DNA from: a virus
Direction: 5' to 3' (one strand)
Length of the DNA: 45,579 nt
IMG/VR virus record: IMGVR_UViG_3300014839_000013
Coordinates: 1-45,579 of that record
Under the pieces are notes generated by a model. It saw nothing but the letters and a program-made list of their open reading frames with translations, was not told where the DNA came from and made no database searches. A program made the translations under genes and the position numbers. Each line of letters begins with the position of its first letter. Positions within the stretch are counted from its first letter, which is position 1. Below, piece after piece: positions 37,017-43,768 of this stretch.

Positions 37017-37697
37017 ATGCACTACGCTCTTAGAGATGATCGTTACCCGATAGAGACAGCGGAACAAATCAAAACTGCGTCTGTTTATTTTTCTAATAAT
37101 CTTTCAAGATTTTCTCCATCTGACAGAGTTGAAATAGCAACCAATATGGAGAAACAGGCTGAAGTTTTAGGTGTTGAACTTAACCAACCTTGGGTCACAA
37201 ATTATAGTAGAATGATGAAAAAAGAAGCTTCATATTCTCCTGAATTTGAATCCAATATGAGGCGTAGAAAAGAGATTTGTGATGTTTATAATGTACAGAT
37301 TTCCGTCGGTGATAAAATGGTTAAGGCGGCTGAAATGGTCGATAAACTCATTGGTGAGAAAAATCAAACAGAACCAATACATATGGTGGCAGCTGTGGGT
37401 GAATTCGATAAACTGGCCAAATTGGAATACCATTATGACGACCGCATTATGGATCCTGTGTTTAGTGTTTTTGGTTCTCATGGCAATCCTGATTTTGACT
37501 TAGAAAAGATTGCCTGTTCTCTTACGGCAAAAACAATTAAAAAAGCTTCTAAAAATAAAGATTTTATGAAAAAGGTTGGTTCATTAATGGGCGCTGGTTT
37601 TGCTACTGATTTTGAAAAGAATCCAGTTGATATTTTTAAATCATTACCTCATCCTGAGCAACAACTAATGTCTGAACAAATATCCCAATTAAAATAA
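37017..37697 (+). CDS. Putative virion-associated protein, unknown
   Basis: This 226-residue helical protein follows the ribosome site AAGGAG at about 37005. It opens with YPIETAEQIKTASVYFSN and contains many Lys/Met/Glu helices. It includes the phrase FDLEKIA at about 165-171, which loosely resembles the short tag seen in the genes at 38483-40059. The role is unknown. It begins the short gene series leading to the portal, so head or neck proteins or internal virion proteins are possible. Confidence 0.45.
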   Translation: MHYALRDDRYPIETAEQIKTASVYFSNNLSRFSPSDRVEIATNMEKQAEVLGVELNQPWVTNYSRMMKKEASYSPEFESNMRRRKEICDVYNVQISVGDKMVKAAEMVDKLIGEKNQTEPIHMVAAVGEFDKLAKLEYHYDDRIMDPVFSVFGSHGNPDFDLEKIACSLTAKTIKKASKNKDFMKKVGSLMGAGFATDFEKNPVDIFKSLPHPEQQLMSEQISQLK

Positions 37698-37699
37698 AA

Positions 37700-38068
37700 A
37701 TGAAACAATTTGTTATATTTTTATTATCTATTATTATCAGTGCAACAGCATTTACAGCGATTGACTCTGTTACGGCATCAAATATTGTAAAAATTATAGA
37801 ACGCACTTGTAATAATTCTTTTGATTCAAAATGGACATTTTGTGCTATTGCAGAATATCCAATAGAAATGAAAGGAAAAGTAAAAGTTCCCGATCTTTCG
37901 CGTGGCAATATCTATTGTTGTAGGCCAGGAGTTGGTGGTATAGTATGGTCAGATAATGATACTGCTTGTATCTTAATAAAAAGATGGCTTAACAGTAAAG
38001 ATACCACCTATCAATTTATGTGGTTTGCTTTAAATAAAAATAAAGTAAAAATGATTCTTTTAAAATGA
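37700..38068 (+). CDS. Exported or membrane-anchored Cys-containing protein
   Basis: This 122-residue protein has a signal-peptide-like N-terminus: MKQFVIFLLSIIISATAFTA, a Lys followed by about 17 hydrophobic residues. The mature part has Cys residues at NERTC-like, TFC, IYCC and TAC positions, which may form disulphides outside the cytoplasm. Its stop overlaps the ATG of the XhlA-like gene (ATGA). A lysis or superinfection-exclusion role is conceivable from the pairing but unproven. Confidence 0.5.
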   Translation: MKQFVIFLLSIIISATAFTAIDSVTASNIVKIIERTCNNSFDSKWTFCAIAEYPIEMKGKVKVPDLSRGNIYCCRPGVGGIVWSDNDTACILIKRWLNSKDTTYQFMWFALNKNKVKMILLK

Positions 38069-38472
38069 CACAAAATTCTACAGGATCATCTATGGATAAT
38101 GGATTCAAGTTGTGGGCTGATTCAATTCAGTCTCAATTAAATGCTATGAATGAGACGTTAAAAAGTGTCAATGAAAATATGTTTAAAGTTACAGATATGG
38201 AAGCCTTTAAAACAGATGTATGTTTAGTAAGAGAACAACGGGTAAATGAACTTCATGAAAAAACAGAAGGATTAATTAAATTTAAAACTCAAATTTTAAC
38301 CATCGTTCTTGTAATTAACGTTTTATTTGCAGGTGCTATGTTTGCCCTGCAAGTTCTACAAATGCAAAATCTTAAAATTGAATTTAGAAACGCTACAGCA
38401 GTTACTACGGCTAATGAAGTGCAAACAGTAGTAAAAAAAATAGAATTAAAGAAATTGGCAGATTCAAAATAA
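38065..38472 (+). CDS. XhlA/holin-like protein: coiled coil plus one membrane helix
   Basis: This 135-residue protein has a charged coiled-coil N-terminus (about 15-75) and one clear hydrophobic helix at about 76-97 (ILTIVLVINVLFAGAMFALQV), then a short basic tail. This is the layout of XhlA-type proteins and of small holin-associated proteins, which anchor at the inner membrane. The translation overlaps the exported Cys protein by 4 nt. Its C-terminal IELKKLADSK resembles the N-terminal tag of the next six genes, which may be chance. Confidence 0.5.
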   Translation: MTQNSTGSSMDNGFKLWADSIQSQLNAMNETLKSVNENMFKVTDMEAFKTDVCLVREQRVNELHEKTEGLIKFKTQILTIVLVINVLFAGAMFALQVLQMQNLKIEFRNATAVTTANEVQTVVKKIELKKLADSK

Positions 38473-38482
38473 GGAAGTAATT

Positions 38483-38749
38483 ATGAACTTACAGGATATC
38501 ACAAAAAAAGCCTTTTATGATGAATTAAGCAAATTAGCAAGTGTCGGATCAGCTGCTAGATTATGGATGGCTGAAGCTAAAGGTATGTTTCCTAAAGGAA
38601 CTGCGGTTGGTGAGTTTTCTAGAGGAAAACTTCCTAAACAAGGAGGTTTTAAAATTCCAGGAACACCACAATCTTCAGTTGGAACAAGTTCGGCTGATTC
38701 TTTTTTATATCATGTTGGGAAAAGTTTACCCATTCAACAAATTAAATGA
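38483..38749 (+). CDS. Tagged miniprotein 1
   Basis: This 88-residue protein starts 7 nt after an AAGGAAG ribosome site. It begins with the shared tag (ITKKAFYDELSKLA at residues 6-19), then a Gly/Ser/Lys/Pro-rich basic, probably disordered tail with no known fold. The tag is shared with the five genes that follow. The stop overlaps the next ATG (ATGA), so translation is coupled. Function unknown. Confidence 0.6.
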   Translation: MNLQDITKKAFYDELSKLASVGSAARLWMAEAKGMFPKGTAVGEFSRGKLPKQGGFKIPGTPQSSVGTSSADSFLYHVGKSLPIQQIK

Positions 38750-38934
38750 ATATATTAATTAAAAAAGCATTTTTTCAAGAACTATTAAAATTAGCCGATA
38801 ATGTTGGCTCATATAGATGTCCAGAATGCGGTTATGACGCTCATGATAATGAACTTGATCAACCAGATTTTTGTCCTTATTGTGGAGCAGCCATGAACAC
38901 ATCCAGTACATCAGAAACTCATGTTAATTCATAA
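38746..38934 (+). CDS. Tagged miniprotein 2 with rubredoxin-like zinc ribbon
   Basis: This 62-residue protein carries the tag (IKKAFFQELLKLA, residues 4-16) and then CPECG at about 25-29 and CPYCG at about 46-50: two CxxC knuckles about 20 residues apart, as in rubredoxins and zinc ribbons. It probably binds one zinc or iron ion. Its start overlaps the previous stop. It shows that the same N-terminal tag is attached to a folded metal-binding domain. Confidence 0.6.
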   Translation: MNILIKKAFFQELLKLADNVGSYRCPECGYDAHDNELDQPDFCPYCGAAMNTSSTSETHVNS

Positions 38935-38961
38935 TTCATTTTAACTAAAGGAGTGATTGTT

Positions 38962-39174
38962 ATGCGTATCGATTTTGAGAAGATTGCTGAAGAGGCCTTT
39001 GTTGATGAACTAAATAAAATTGCCATGGCCCCACCACTTGGAGCTATTGGCCATGCCGCTAGTGCTGAAGGGTCACACGTATTTGAAGAAGCGTCGGTAA
39101 AGGCTAGAGAGGCTGCAATCAGAGCTAAAAAAATGGCACCTCGTCCCGCAACACCCTCAGCGCCAAAGGCATAA
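38962..39174 (+). CDS. Tagged miniprotein 3
   Basis: The start is ATG 38962 because AAAGGAG at 38947-38953 is placed for it; the in-frame GTG at 38953 overlaps that site. The 70-residue protein starts with FEKIAEEAFVDELNKIA (residues 5-21), followed by an Ala/Pro/Lys-rich tail ending PATPSAPKA. The tail looks disordered and basic, like nucleic-acid-associated virion proteins. Function unknown. Confidence 0.6.
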   Translation: MRIDFEKIAEEAFVDELNKIAMAPPLGAIGHAASAEGSHVFEEASVKAREAAIRAKKMAPRPATPSAPKA

Positions 39175-39176
39175 TT

Positions 39177-39425
39177 ATGGATCGAGATAGTTGGCTTGAA
39201 GATATAGAGAATATGGCTTTCAAAAGCGAATTGCAAAAACTTGCTGATAGCCCCATATATCCAGAAGAAAAAAATATTGATGAAGACGAACTCGAATTGG
39301 GAACTGAAGATGAGGGTGAAGATGGGTTTGTTTATCATTCAGATGATGGGATTATGATGAGAAACAATGTATCTGCAAAAGAAAAAATAGAGAAGTTGAG
39401 AAAAAAAGCTAAAAGGAAATTATGA
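39177..39425 (+). CDS. Tagged miniprotein 4, acidic tail
   Basis: This 82-residue protein has the tag in the form IENMAFKSELQKLAD (residues 10-24), then a strongly acidic middle (many Glu/Asp) containing VYHSDDG, and a Lys/Arg-rich end. The next protein has a related phrase, VIYHSND. The stop overlaps the next ATG (ATGA). The opposite charges of the two ends could support self-association. Function unknown. Confidence 0.6.
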   Translation: MDRDSWLEDIENMAFKSELQKLADSPIYPEEKNIDEDELELGTEDEGEDGFVYHSDDGIMMRNNVSAKEKIEKLRKKAKRKL

Positions 39426-39640
39426 TTAATTTAAACAAAATTGCACAAACAGCTTTCATAGATGAGTTATATAAACTCGCCAACATCGAAGTTGGAGATG
39501 ATGGTAAAGTAATTTATCATTCTAACGACAAAGATAATCCAAAGAAAAAAATGGATGATGCAAGATTAGGATATGAATCATATACAGAAGATACCGCAGC
39601 AGGAAGTGCTGTATTAAGAACGGAACCGTCACCAAATTAA
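39422..39640 (+). CDS. Tagged miniprotein 5
   Basis: This 72-residue protein starts with MINLNKIAQTAFIDELYKLA (residues 1-20), followed by a charged region with VIYHSNDK like miniprotein 4 (VYHSDDG) and a hydrophilic end. Sharing of both the tag and the YHS phrase marks 4 and 5 as the closest pair. Ribosome site AAAGG lies just upstream. Confidence 0.6.
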   Translation: MINLNKIAQTAFIDELYKLANIEVGDDGKVIYHSNDKDNPKKKMDDARLGYESYTEDTAAGSAVLRTEPSPN

Positions 39641-39651
39641 AAAAAAATATT

Positions 39652-40059
39652 ATGAATATTGATTTAATAAAAATTACAGAAAAAGCTTTTAAGGATGAAT
39701 TAAAAAAAATAGCATCTCTTAAAGAGGGTAAAAGATATCCATCCAAGGAAATGAAAAAGGAATTTGATACTGATGGGCCGCCACCAGATTTGGATTCAGC
39801 AACAGATTATAGTCCCAAATATCCTACAGATCATTTATCAATAAAAACAGCGGCAATGGTCCCAAATAAATTCCTTGTAAATAAAATATTAACCCGAAAA
39901 TATGTACCTCAATTTGGAAGTAGGTTAGCTAATAGGGCAGTAGAAGGACAACATTATTTAGAAATAGGAAGAAATTACTCAGCAATGTCAGATGATCAAG
40001 ATAATCAACAAGGCCATCCAAGTGCTTATCCTACACATTTGAAAAGGTTCATTAAATGA
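39652..40059 (+). CDS. Tagged protein 6
   Basis: This 135-residue protein is the longest of the series. It starts with IKITEKAFKDELKKIA (residues 6-21) and continues with a Lys/Pro/Asp-rich linker and a basic C-terminal part (about 70-135). There is no clear Shine-Dalgarno, because AAAAAAAATATT precedes the ATG. The stop overlaps the start of the 59-residue coiled-coil gene (ATGA). Function unknown. Confidence 0.55.
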   Translation: MNIDLIKITEKAFKDELKKIASLKEGKRYPSKEMKKEFDTDGPPPDLDSATDYSPKYPTDHLSIKTAAMVPNKFLVNKILTRKYVPQFGSRLANRAVEGQHYLEIGRNYSAMSDDQDNQQGHPSAYPTHLKRFIK

Positions 40060-40235
40060 AAAATCATAATTCTGAAAATAATGATTTAAGCAAACAATGT
40101 TCCAAATGTCCTATTTTAATTAAAGAAGTGGCTGTAATTAAGAATCTACAATTAGATGTATCTTCAAAACTTGAGACTCTTACCAATAAGGTTGATAAAA
40201 TAACGCTTATTCTTTTAGAAAAATTATCCAAATGA
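40056..40235 (+). CDS. 59-residue coiled-coil miniprotein
   Basis: This short gene is bounded by ATGA overlaps on both sides (start 40056, stop overlapping the ATG at 40232), which argues that it is real. The product has a small CSKC pair near residues 15-18 and then a heptad-rich helix (about 30-59; LDVSSKLETLTNKVDKITLI). It has no shared tag. It may be an oligomerisation or membrane-edge factor; XhlA-like proteins have similar heptads but also a membrane helix, which is missing here. Confidence 0.55.
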   Translation: MKNHNSENNDLSKQCSKCPILIKEVAVIKNLQLDVSSKLETLTNKVDKITLILLEKLSK

Positions 40236-40975
40236 ATGAAAAGAAACTGTCAGAACGCCTACAAGATGCTTATATGTTGGGCGACAAGGATTCTATAGCC
40301 AAACTGAAGCAAGAGGCCCAAGAGAAGGCTGAAGGGCTTCAGAAGAGGTCTAGAGTGGCTCCATTGGCTGTCAATACACTTCTTAATAATGAAAATTCTT
40401 CTGTTATTAAAATTAATGAATTCCTTGAAAGTGCTTTTGGTGATGATTGGTGGGAATTGGAACATGAAACGATAGAACGTCTTCTTTGGATCAAATATGG
40501 TACAGCACTTGAAGATGCAAATAGAGATAAGTTGTGGAGTATCAAATACTTACTTAATAGTCAAAGACCTTTTCTTGATTGGTTTTTATTTAATCAAATA
40601 ACTTTAGCTTTTGCTGGTGTTATAGCTGATTTTGAAGTCTTGAGAACGCCAACACCTGGAATGATAATTAATGCTGTCAATGCTATGAAACAATTACGGC
40701 CAGAAGAGCCATTTTCAAGAGAGGTTAAAAAATATATTTCCATCCTTTTAATTCATGAAGGTATTTATACTCCCCCGCCATCATTAGTAGATTTAATTAG
40801 TGATGAATTTGAATCTCTAGTAAAAAATTCAAATAAAGAAGAATGGAAAACTGTTTATAACAGATATAAAGAAATTCTTGAATCAAAAAATATTGAATTA
40901 CAAGAAACGTCATTAGATATACAAGCGAGAAGATTATTAGTAGCTGAAGAGGCGGCTAGTGAATATTCTAAATAA
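40232..40975 (+). CDS. Protein upstream of portal, unknown
   Basis: This 247-residue protein begins in an ATGA overlap. It is largely helical, with a Trp-rich centre (DDWWELEHETIERLLWIKYG at about 71-90; FLDWFLFNQITLAFAG at about 113-128). No motif is recognised. Its position next to the portal gene suggests a head or neck component, or a small-terminase-like or packaging factor, but none of these can be shown. The HNH gene overlaps its last 17 nt. Confidence 0.45.
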   Translation: MNEKKLSERLQDAYMLGDKDSIAKLKQEAQEKAEGLQKRSRVAPLAVNTLLNNENSSVIKINEFLESAFGDDWWELEHETIERLLWIKYGTALEDANRDKLWSIKYLLNSQRPFLDWFLFNQITLAFAGVIADFEVLRTPTPGMIINAVNAMKQLRPEEPFSREVKKYISILLIHEGIYTPPPSLVDLISDEFESLVKNSNKEEWKTVYNRYKEILESKNIELQETSLDIQARRLLVAEEAASEYSK

Positions 40976-41441
40976 AAAAAGTAATATACAAAGAATTTGT
41001 AAAAAATGTGGAAATCCCTTTACTGTTAAAGGTTTTACAGCGAGATCCACAAGTGGTGGCAGAAAAAATTCTGGAATATTTTGTTCAACTATATGTAGAT
41101 ATCAATATATGACTGGAAAAAATAATCATAGATATAATAAAAGAGGTAATGGTTGGAAAGATGGATATGGATATATTAGTTACAATGTTGATGGTAAAAG
41201 AATAAAAAGATGTAGGCACGTGATGGAACAAATATTAGGAAGAAAATTATTCTCTACTGAAAGTGTACATCATAAAAATGGCATTAGATCAGATGATTCT
41301 CCAAAAAATTTAGAGCTTTGGACAAGTAATCATCCCACTGGCGTTAGAGTTTCTGACTTAAATGAATGGGCTATTAATTATTTACAATCGCAAGGTTATA
41401 TAATAGAAATGAAATTAAAACAAATAGCAATTAATGGATAG
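40959..41441 (+). CDS. Free-standing HNH homing endonuclease
   Basis: The start is GTG 40959 with GAAGAGG at 40946-40952; no other start fits. The 160-residue protein has an N-terminal zinc ribbon (CKKCG at about 14-18, then CSTIC at about 42-46), a YGYISYNVDGKRI strand typical of phage HNH enzymes, and an HNH motif: VHHKNG at about 103-108, then the Asn in SPKNLELW. The enzyme is expected to cut one or both strands at a homing site. It lies 56 nt upstream of the portal gene, which contains a group I intron, and is not inside the intron. Confidence 0.9.
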   Translation: MNILNKKSNIQRICKKCGNPFTVKGFTARSTSGGRKNSGIFCSTICRYQYMTGKNNHRYNKRGNGWKDGYGYISYNVDGKRIKRCRHVMEQILGRKLFSTESVHHKNGIRSDDSPKNLELWTSNHPTGVRVSDLNEWAINYLQSQGYIIEMKLKQIAING

Positions 41442-41497: not shown

Positions 41498-41623
41498 ATG
41501 TCTAATGATGGTTTTTCGGGAAACGGATTAGTAATACAAGGTCAAGCACCTGAGCATGGTTTGGATCGTCAAAGTTTTGCTCGTGGAGCTATACAGTACG
41601 ATAATCCGTTTATGGATGAGTCT
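41498..41623 (+). CDS. Portal protein, exon 1
   Basis: ATG 41498 follows a strong ribosome site GGAGGG at 41489-41494. The frame reads 42 residues up to the proposed splice site (ending FMDES) and then stops at 41633-41635 if unspliced. Joined to 41819, in the same reading phase, it gives a 691-residue portal protein with the junction phrase MDES/MTSTFIPRTIK, or one residue less if the 3' site is after 41821. The strong start signal makes this short piece hard to explain as an isolated gene, and exon 2 has no ribosome site of its own. Confidence 0.75.
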
Positions 41624-41818
41624 TTCGTCCTATAAAGGAGCAATCCTTTACAGCATAACCCGAATAACGGTTAATATCCTGAAGAGGACAAGACCGTAGC
41701 GGCAAGTGAAAATAAAGTTTTCAATCCGCTCTAACGACTGACAAGGGCTTCTCACTGAGAAGGATATACAGTCTGGCCTGCAGCTATAACAAGATGAAAC
41801 TGCAGATTAACAATAGCG
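41624..41818 (+). ncRNA. Group I intron, compact, in the portal gene
   Basis: The core folds by eye. P1: exon UCU plus UU (41621-41625) with AAGGA (41635-41639), placing a U-G wobble (U41623/G41637) at the splice site. P3 (tentative): 41644-41648 with 41743-41747. P4: ACGGT 41667-41671 with ACCGT 41693-41697. P5: 41678-41680 with 41685-41687. P6: AGCGG 41698-41702 with CCGCT 41726-41730, topped by GAAAA/TTTTC. P7: GACTG 41736-41740 with CAGTC 41769-41773. P8: CTTCTC 41748-41753 with GAGAAG 41757-41762. P9: CTGCAG 41778-41783 with 41800-41805. The R-like CTAACGACTGA and S-like AAGGATATACAGTC elements resemble those of T4-type group IA introns. The 3' end is G41818 (or G41821). At 195 nt, with no ORF, it is unusually short. 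Confidence 0.85.
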
Positions 41819-43768
41819 ATGACTTCCACGTTCATTCCGCGTACCATCAAATCCATGTTACGCTTTACCGCCGCTTTTGCCCTCGCTGATGGGCTTGTTT
41901 CTCAATGTATTTCAAAATTAGCAGAATACCCTATCACTAAATTGATTTATAATGATGAAAAAAAATCAAATATAAAAAAAGATCAAACTCTAAGTTATTG
42001 GGAAGATCTTTTTGAAAAGAAAATAGATATTCTTCGTGTCCTTAAACAATGTGGCATGGATTATTATGCCTATGGCAATAGTATTATATCAATAAATTAT
42101 CCATTTAGGCGTTTGCTTATTTGTCCACGTTGTAATAAAAGACATTCAGCGGAAGCGATGAATTATAAATTCAGGTCATTTAAATTTGAAGCATCTTGTA
42201 TTACTCCCAAATGCGGTTACAGAGGAGTAATGGATGCAATTGATGAGCCAACAAAAGAATTAAACAAATTAAAGATAGTTCATTGGGATTTACTCCATAT
42301 TGACATTAAATACAATTCAATCAGTGGAGATCATTTCTATTATTATACAGTTCCAGCTGATCTTGCTGGAGCCATTAGTTCTGGAGATAGGGACATTGTC
42401 AGAACAACAAGACTTGAAGTTATTGAGGCTGTGAAACGGAAGAAACAAATTAAGTTAATGTCTGATAATGTTTATCATCTCAAAAGAGCCGCTCCTCAAT
42501 ATATAATTCCATCCCAAAGAGGCTGGGGTATTCCTATCATAATGCCTATTATGAAGGATATGTTCCATAATAAGATCCTTAAAAAGGGAAATGAAATGAT
42601 CGCTTTTGATCATATCGTTCCTTTAAGAATTTTATTTCCAGCCGGAACAGGAGATGTCAGCCCCCATCTTACAACGAATCTTTCTAAATGGAAAACGAAT
42701 ATTGAATCTGAAATTTCAGCATGGAAGAGAGACCCTAATAGAATATCAGTAGTTCCTCTTCCGCTTGGAACTGTTAATTTCAGTGGTGACGCAAGACTTC
42801 TTATGCTTACTCCTGAAATTAAAGCTGTTGAAGATTCTATAATTACAGGTTTAGGGATTATACCTGAAATTGTAAGAGGTGGAGCTTCATGGTCTGGAAG
42901 TAATGTGTCTTTACGAATCGTTGAAAATACATTTATTAATCATAGGAATGACATATCTAATGTTCTTGATTTTGTTGTCGATAATGTTTCAAGATATCTT
43001 GATAAACCCAAAATTAGTATCAAAATGTCTGATTTTAAAATGGCTGACGATTTACAAAAGAAGCAATTAATGGTTCAAGCATCGCAAGGCGGAGTTGCTA
43101 ATGCTCTATTTTCAAAAGCGACAGTTACGAAAGAATTTGGTGTTGATCCTGATAAAGAATATGAATTAAAACAAGAAGAACTTAAGAAAACAATTGAAAC
43201 TGCCGTGCAAGAAGCTGAGGGACAAGCGGAAGCTCAGGGTGCTGCAGCTGTTATTGCCGCCCTCTATCAGGCTGATGCTCAAATGGAAAGCCAAAAGAGA
43301 CTGGATCAGCACGACAGGAAAAATATATCTGATAGGGACTCTGAACTTGAAAAAGAAAAAGCGATGAATGCCCAGAATGTTGAACAGGAAGCTATAACAT
43401 TAGCTAACGGAACACAAATTTCAGTGCCTAATCTTATTCTAATTCTTACTCAACGTTTTGCCAGACTTGCACAAATAGATATGGAGGAATTCAAGATCAG
43501 GATGATAGCTATGAAGAATTCTACTCCTAATCTTTATCATGAAGTCTATAATAATCTTAAAGAAATGAATCTTATTCAAGCTGATACAATGCCGAATATG
43601 GATGCTGTTCAACAATTAACTCCTGGGCAGATTCCCACATTTACTCAAGGTGATGAAAATGCTGAGTCATCTCCTGACGCGGCTGCAGCTGGAGGACAAC
43701 CAGCTTCTCAAGTACTTGAACCTCTACCGGAGGTCAGACCTCCGATGTCACAAACTGCATCGGTTTAA
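41819..43768 (+). CDS. Portal protein, exon 2
   Basis: The 649 codons carry nearly all of the portal protein, the dodecameric ring at the head vertex that DNA passes through. Features seen: the N-terminal STFIPRTIKSMLRFTAAFAL stretch typical of large-phage portals; a likely zinc ribbon in the first third (CPRCNKRH at about 101-108, then a CxxxxC pair); a basic wing and stem region at about 230-400 (SGDARLLMLTPEIKAVEDS); and a Gln/Glu/Ala-rich helical C-terminus. The final 50 residues are Pro/Ala/Gln-rich and disordered. The first ATG (41819) lacks a ribosome site, which fits translation from exon 1. It is the last gene of the plus-strand block. Confidence 0.8.
   Translation: MTSTFIPRTIKSMLRFTAAFALADGLVSQCISKLAEYPITKLIYNDEKKSNIKKDQTLSYWEDLFEKKIDILRVLKQCGMDYYAYGNSIISINYPFRRLLICPRCNKRHSAEAMNYKFRSFKFEASCITPKCGYRGVMDAIDEPTKELNKLKIVHWDLLHIDIKYNSISGDHFYYYTVPADLAGAISSGDRDIVRTTRLEVIEAVKRKKQIKLMSDNVYHLKRAAPQYIIPSQRGWGIPIIMPIMKDMFHNKILKKGNEMIAFDHIVPLRILFPAGTGDVSPHLTTNLSKWKTNIESEISAWKRDPNRISVVPLPLGTVNFSGDARLLMLTPEIKAVEDSIITGLGIIPEIVRGGASWSGSNVSLRIVENTFINHRNDISNVLDFVVDNVSRYLDKPKISIKMSDFKMADDLQKKQLMVQASQGGVANALFSKATVTKEFGVDPDKEYELKQEELKKTIETAVQEAEGQAEAQGAAAVIAALYQADAQMESQKRLDQHDRKNISDRDSELEKEKAMNAQNVEQEAITLANGTQISVPNLILILTQRFARLAQIDMEEFKIRMIAMKNSTPNLYHEVYNNLKEMNLIQADTMPNMDAVQQLTPGQIPTFTQGDENAESSPDAAAAGGQPASQVLEPLPEVRPPMSQTASV

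Follow-up and report, generated by a model that had tools for sequence, protein, structure and literature searches.

The window, a 45,579-nucleotide IMG/VR virus fragment that encodes baseplate and tail genes, homing endonucleases and a portal, carries six adjacent genes whose small products share an N-terminal tag, and this tag is probably a prohead-targeting propeptide that is cut by the head maturation protease. Entry into the head, cleavage, the exact bond and injection are all inferred, and there are no virion data for any tagged phage. The tag would consist of an amphipathic segment of about 20 residues, often with an upstream turn rich in isoleucine and leucine, ending in A-F-x-D-E-L-x-K-[IL]-A. 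It would dock its cargo to the prohead core, the scaffold or core partner being inferred, and carry small proteins and enzymes with nothing else in common into the head during its assembly, where the maturation protease would cut behind the final alanine at [LIVM]-x-K-x-A; the untagged cargo would remain with the DNA and probably be delivered into the host. The initial annotation had already proposed a targeting peptide for loading varied cargo into the head, by analogy with T4 internal proteins, and the proposal is supported by the occurrence of the tag on unrelated proteins of phages with one head module, by a tag-end pentapeptide that is invariant in the protease propeptide, enriched in head-assembly proteins and depleted in cargo, by the abundance of an untagged SNF2 homolog in Arash virions, and by the accessory nature of the cargo cassettes.

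A six-frame scan of the window with the pattern AF..EL.K[LI]A resulted in exactly six matches, all N-terminal in the six open reading frames, and the degenerate DNA pattern of the tag matched six times on the forward strand, with no reverse and no backward-control matches. For the looser pattern F..E[LMI].[KR][LIM]A, 0.07 matches are expected in the window from residue-shuffled six-frame translations, with a maximum of 1 in 100 shuffles. All six are genuine open frames in a single orientation (+ strand). The first gene (38483 to 38749, 88 amino acids) is preceded by an RBS-like AAGGAAG and encodes the core AFYDELSKLA at nucleotides 38510 to 38539, followed by a tail of unknown function. The product of the second (38746 to 38934, 62 amino acids; core AFFQELLKLA, 38767 to 38796) has a four-cysteine, zinc-ribbon- or rubredoxin-like tail (CPEC...CPYC), the only one of the six with weak zinc-ribbon-like matches, which lie below Pfam cut-offs. 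A basic Ala/Pro-rich tail follows the core AFVDELNKIA (38995 to 39024) in the third (38962 to 39174, 70 amino acids), which has AAAGGAG upstream of its ATG at 38962, and an acidic tail follows AFKSELQKLA (39216 to 39245) in the fourth (39177 to 39425, 82 amino acids). The fifth (39422 to 39640, 72 amino acids) contains a second site, LNKIA, ahead of its core AFIDELYKLA (39452 to 39481), and the sixth and longest (39652 to 40059, 135 amino acids) has the core AFKDELKKIA at 39685 to 39714. The initial reading of six small proteins with a common N-terminal tag and unrelated tails was thus borne out: all six were recovered, no family is common to the tails, and the tails gave no PHROGs match and nothing above Pfam cut-offs. 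The check that it had suggested, a search for the motif elsewhere in the genome and in relatives, found the window otherwise free of the tag and the tag recurring N-terminally in relatives. Two details of gene arrangement were wrong. The genes are not mostly joined by ATGA overlaps, the junction spacings being −4, +27, +2, −4 and +11, with the 4-nt overlap at only two of the five junctions, and they do not lie directly upstream of the portal, since a 59-residue open frame, a gene for 247 residues and an HNH endonuclease intervene. The portal itself had been identified correctly, since it is homologous to the protein annotated as portal in Salmonella phage Arash. As a separate observation, a small membrane-protein-like open frame before the cassette (38065 to 38472) has the C-terminal sequence IELKKLADSK, which contains an [LIVM]-x-K-x-A.

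The slot that holds the cassette is bordered on the left by a conserved gene at 37017 to 37697 (+ strand, 226 amino acids, weak DUF6582) and on the right by the conserved gene for 247 amino acids at 40232 to 40975 (+ strand), which adjoins the portal. Between these two borders lie six tagged genes in the window, one in G002 and none in G003, the two nearest divergent relatives of the window, and the cargo cassettes are therefore accessory. The DUF6582-like product contains seven K-x-A and four [LIVM]-x-K-x-A, compared with 0.4 of the latter expected, and because of this excess it is predicted to be a processed head protein. The main part of the portal is encoded at 41819 to 43768 (+ strand), with about 40 N-terminal codons separate at 41498 to 41617. 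This portal is homologous to the portals of Arash (E-value 2e-59; phmmer, 1e-64) and Vibrio phage D69, and on the criterion of a homologous portal the window phage belongs with the lineage that has the Arash-like head module. The fragment contains no protease, scaffold or MCP gene, so for this phage the link to the head module runs via relatives. The portal gene is split between 41498 to 41635 and 41819 to 43768: its first 40 or so codons (ending QYDNPFMD) and the remainder (beginning MTSTFIPRTIK) are contiguous in both G002 and G003. In the window the two parts are separated by about 200 nt, and an HNH endonuclease gene (40959 to 41441) is found just upstream. The insertion is intron-like, yet it gave no Rfam match.

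Beyond the window, the pattern AF.DEL.K[LIM]A was found in at least 120 stretches of viral contigs, compared with 71 in total for the codon-reversed control. Among the matches listed, 69 of 117 forward matches lay within 16 residues of the first ATG, as did 5 of 50 control matches, and the narrow form AFFDELEKIA was found in 10 stretches and its reversed pattern in none. In 47 motif-carrying records the pattern occurred up to 13 times per record, mostly on the coding strand, with 4 backward-control matches in total; since these records were selected for containing the motif or for being related to the window, one match in each is expected, but the further matches are not. A profile built from 131 tags identified 14 tagged genes in G031, 15 in G014 and 5 in G036, with 0 to 1 in shuffled proteins. 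In 128 aligned tagged proteins the phenylalanine, glutamate and lysine of the tag are invariant at a mean column identity of 4%, and the eighth position after the phenylalanine is alanine in 92% and serine in 8% of the tags. Judged by sequence, a consensus N-terminal tag, [AGS]F-x-D-EL-x-K-I-A, is carried by over 120 proteins, most of them unrelated, from large myophages that have not been cultured. The tag was not found in the more distant phages Myrna, E3, Stormageddon and I3, and a tblastn search of isolates with the bare 20-residue consensus gave no match, the query being too short. Bacillus phage G (W08) has one match to a loose pattern (76537 to 76562, minus strand), whose frame and gene position are unverified. 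One scan of cellular genomes resulted in 12 matches, mostly in ordinary cellular proteins such as PhoU, with L242 possibly a phage. Some single matches are chance look-alikes, as in PhoU of Hyphomonas and in the transketolase of L094, which was discarded as a natural look-alike of the tag.

The proteins behind the tag are highly varied, with about 129 clusters among 173 tails. Named domains include SNF2 helicase, C92 papain-like amidase, histidine phosphatase, GNAT acetyltransferases, HNH and MazG, and one tagged protein matches a PHROG named DarB-like antirestriction. SNF2 helicases with the strict tag occur in four motif loci (L011, L028, L040 and L117). The adjacency, similar size and common orientation of the six window genes could be explained by shared ancestry without function, the genes having been duplicated and their tails having diverged faster than their N-termini, but this explanation is hardly credible given that the identical N-terminus is found on enzymes with unrelated folds in many phages, that the tag codons vary freely among the six window copies, and that some SNF2 helicases carry the tag as a clean addition to the N-terminus, the Arash homolog starting directly at the domain. 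In two loci (L017, 8674 to 10665; L021, 9158 to 11539) a single open frame encodes a DNA ligase-like protein, then the tag, then a further domain, which in L021 is a papain-like amidase; the homology of the ligase-like part to the ligase domain of G031 was judged by eye. These fused frames are possibly polyproteins for cutting at the internal tag. A small FKSxAQ...LPEK/LPW motif was also observed beside or fused to tagged proteins (G014, 53276 to 53920; G031, 73019 to 73396; L053; L059) and is perhaps a second virion-associated module.

The tagged genes are associated with one set of head genes. The portal, head protease, scaffold, MCP or TerL of one lineage was present in 47 of 120 listed motif loci, compared with none of 71 control loci, and the gene order protease-scaffold-MCP is conserved. 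The head protease of tagged relatives matches PHROG 18299, head maturation protease, and neither the conserved histidines nor the serine motif SMG of this protease vary among 12 members. The best PDB match of the predicted structure is T4 gp21 (5jbl; probability 0.99, E-value 1.5e-3), followed by herpesvirus protease; with a mean pLDDT of 63 for the model and this E-value, the fold match to gp21 is only moderate. At the level of sequence and model, a gp21-type prohead protease is present in the related tagged phages, its gene lying outside the window fragment. The head proteases of L013, L047 and L024 contain intein-like insertions right behind the catalytic SMG motif (SMG|C).

The end of the tag conforms to [LIVM]-x-K-x-A, and the same signature is found in the protease. 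Some 30 residues of variable sequence precede the protease domain and end in [LM]-x-K-x-A, with lysine and alanine invariant in 12 of 12 sequences; the site is present in all 11 testable protease sequences (1.25 expected), and in the AlphaFold model residues 1 to 30 are disordered, exactly up to the site alanine. Head-assembly proteins are enriched in [LIVM].K.A, with 36 sites in Arash compared with 5.2 expected (about 7-fold), 38 in G031 compared with 8.6, and 25 in G029 compared with 7.8. No enrichment was observed in tail or metabolic proteins, where the ratio is near 1, or in RNA polymerase and portal proteins. The ratio of K.A to A.K is 66:10 in scaffolds, 110:210 in cargo tails and 305:300 in non-head proteins (Fisher P 3e-10 for scaffold and 3e-6 for cargo), with R.A and A.R balanced in cargo. 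Portals, checked for the same depletion of K-x-A, did not have it (51:49), and exposure is therefore not uniform. The N-terminus of MCP has a conserved K-[VIL]-A that often lacks the hydrophobic P5 residue and is only suggestive as a test of cleavage. The propeptide site is absent from Myrna, E3, Stormageddon and I3, and the protease of phage G retains LVKTA. Enrichment in parts destined for destruction, a single occurrence at each tag end and avoidance in cargo bodies are the pattern of a maturation site, and [LIVM]-x-K-x-A looks like the head-maturation cleavage site, although this is a statistical inference from sequences and cleavage itself is inferred. That the tag instead docks proteins to a target outside the head, such as a phage intracellular compartment, the host membrane or the tail, would be compatible with the lack of physical localisation data and with several glycine-rich, hydrophobic tails that resemble membrane proteins. 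We regard it as very unlikely, as the tag clusters with portal, protease, scaffold and MCP genes and the maturation-site signature is enriched in head proteins, not tail proteins.

The scaffolds may indicate where the tag came from. In one sub-lineage (L013, L027, L047, L111, L129 and others) the scaffold, encoded between the protease and MCP genes, contains the exact internal motif GR-x-MAR-AFxDELxK[LM]A. G031-like scaffolds have a weaker form in the equivalent place (shuffle P 0.003 to 0.07 where it is the best window), and matches of scaffolds to the tag profile are significant in some lineages and weak in others, the exact form being limited to the one sub-lineage. The presence of the motif in scaffold suggests that the cargo mimics part of the scaffold; the scaffold is the suspected docking partner of the tag, but the partner is not established. 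These scaffolds also bear on whether the tag is a mere leader for protease recognition and removal, with cargo entering through some other feature or through co-localised synthesis. Cleavage seems to require no more than the site itself, since F-x-D-E-L is missing ahead of many [LIVM].K.A sites of scaffolds and other head proteins. Arash, in addition, packages its helicase without a tag. However, the phenylalanine and glutamate are as invariant as the lysine over the 128 unrelated cargo proteins, which exceeds the needs of a bare site, and the scaffolds of the sub-lineage keep the entire AFxDELxK[LM]A, leaving a leader without a targeting role unlikely.

For the targeting of cargo into virions, the evidence is only indirect and comes from Arash. 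In its virion proteome the SNF2-type helicase gp217, an untagged relative of the tagged SNF2 helicases, is represented by 38 unique peptides and 1148 spectra, compared with 1333 spectra for MCP (PMC10585845). This abundance indicates that the SNF2 cargo type belongs in virions, though it is packaged untagged there, and the tag is therefore not needed by every member. Arash and D69 resemble the tagged phages in their homologous portal, head protease and MCP, in the same [LIVM]-x-K-x-A propeptide and in a site-rich scaffold, but the strict F-x-D-E-L tag is absent from both genomes, as it is from that of the isolate PA-SR01.

The closest known parallel is in T4, whose internal proteins form a highly diverse set in which only the capsid-targeting sequence (CTS) is conserved (PMC3012670; PMC5694885). 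The CTS of IPI-III and Alt is a short N-terminal propeptide of 10-20 residues on unrelated small proteins that is removed by a gp21-type protease, and the tag is likewise a short N-terminal segment common to otherwise unrelated proteins. T4 maturation sites end in Glu. The tag has no Glu at P1, its copies ending in K-[IL]-A with hydrophobic-x-K-x-A as the predicted rule, and it also differs from the CTS in sequence, in head-gene lineage, in the far greater number of cargo kinds and in occurring internally in fused multi-domain frames. The best reading of these sequences is that the tag works like the T4 CTS without being a member of it, targeting and cleavage being inferred. The large myophages phiKZ and SPN3US package and eject many proteins and have N-terminal propeptides that are cut by the prohead protease (PMC5694885); a packaged RNA polymerase, as reported for Arash (PMC10585845), is a further common feature. 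In contrast to the tag, with its 20 or so residues and K-x-A site, the SPN3US propeptides are mostly longer than 100 residues with the site A-x-E, and those of phiKZ are longer and also end in Glu (PMC5694885). No description of the tag was found in the open-licence literature, and searches there for the underlying idea led only to work on T4, P1 and SPN3US. The broadest interpretation is a general virion-import code independent of that of T4, in which a broad lineage of uncultured large myophages packages dozens of unrelated proteins by means of one cleavable peptide of about 20 residues, copied from a scaffold helix, and has a protease of new specificity (hydrophobic-x-K-x-A). It would allow injected host-takeover proteins to be listed from sequence alone, and it is possible but remains tentative.

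The proteins that large phages inject with their DNA are mostly unknown and normally cannot be read from sequence. If the targeting role is correct, the tag would single out more than 100 unknown cargo families as candidates for injected effectors and would define the mature N-terminus of each. A new cleavage rule would be predicted for a gp21-type protease, and the tag would provide a second packaging signal, independent of that of T4, with which foreign proteins could be loaded into phage heads.
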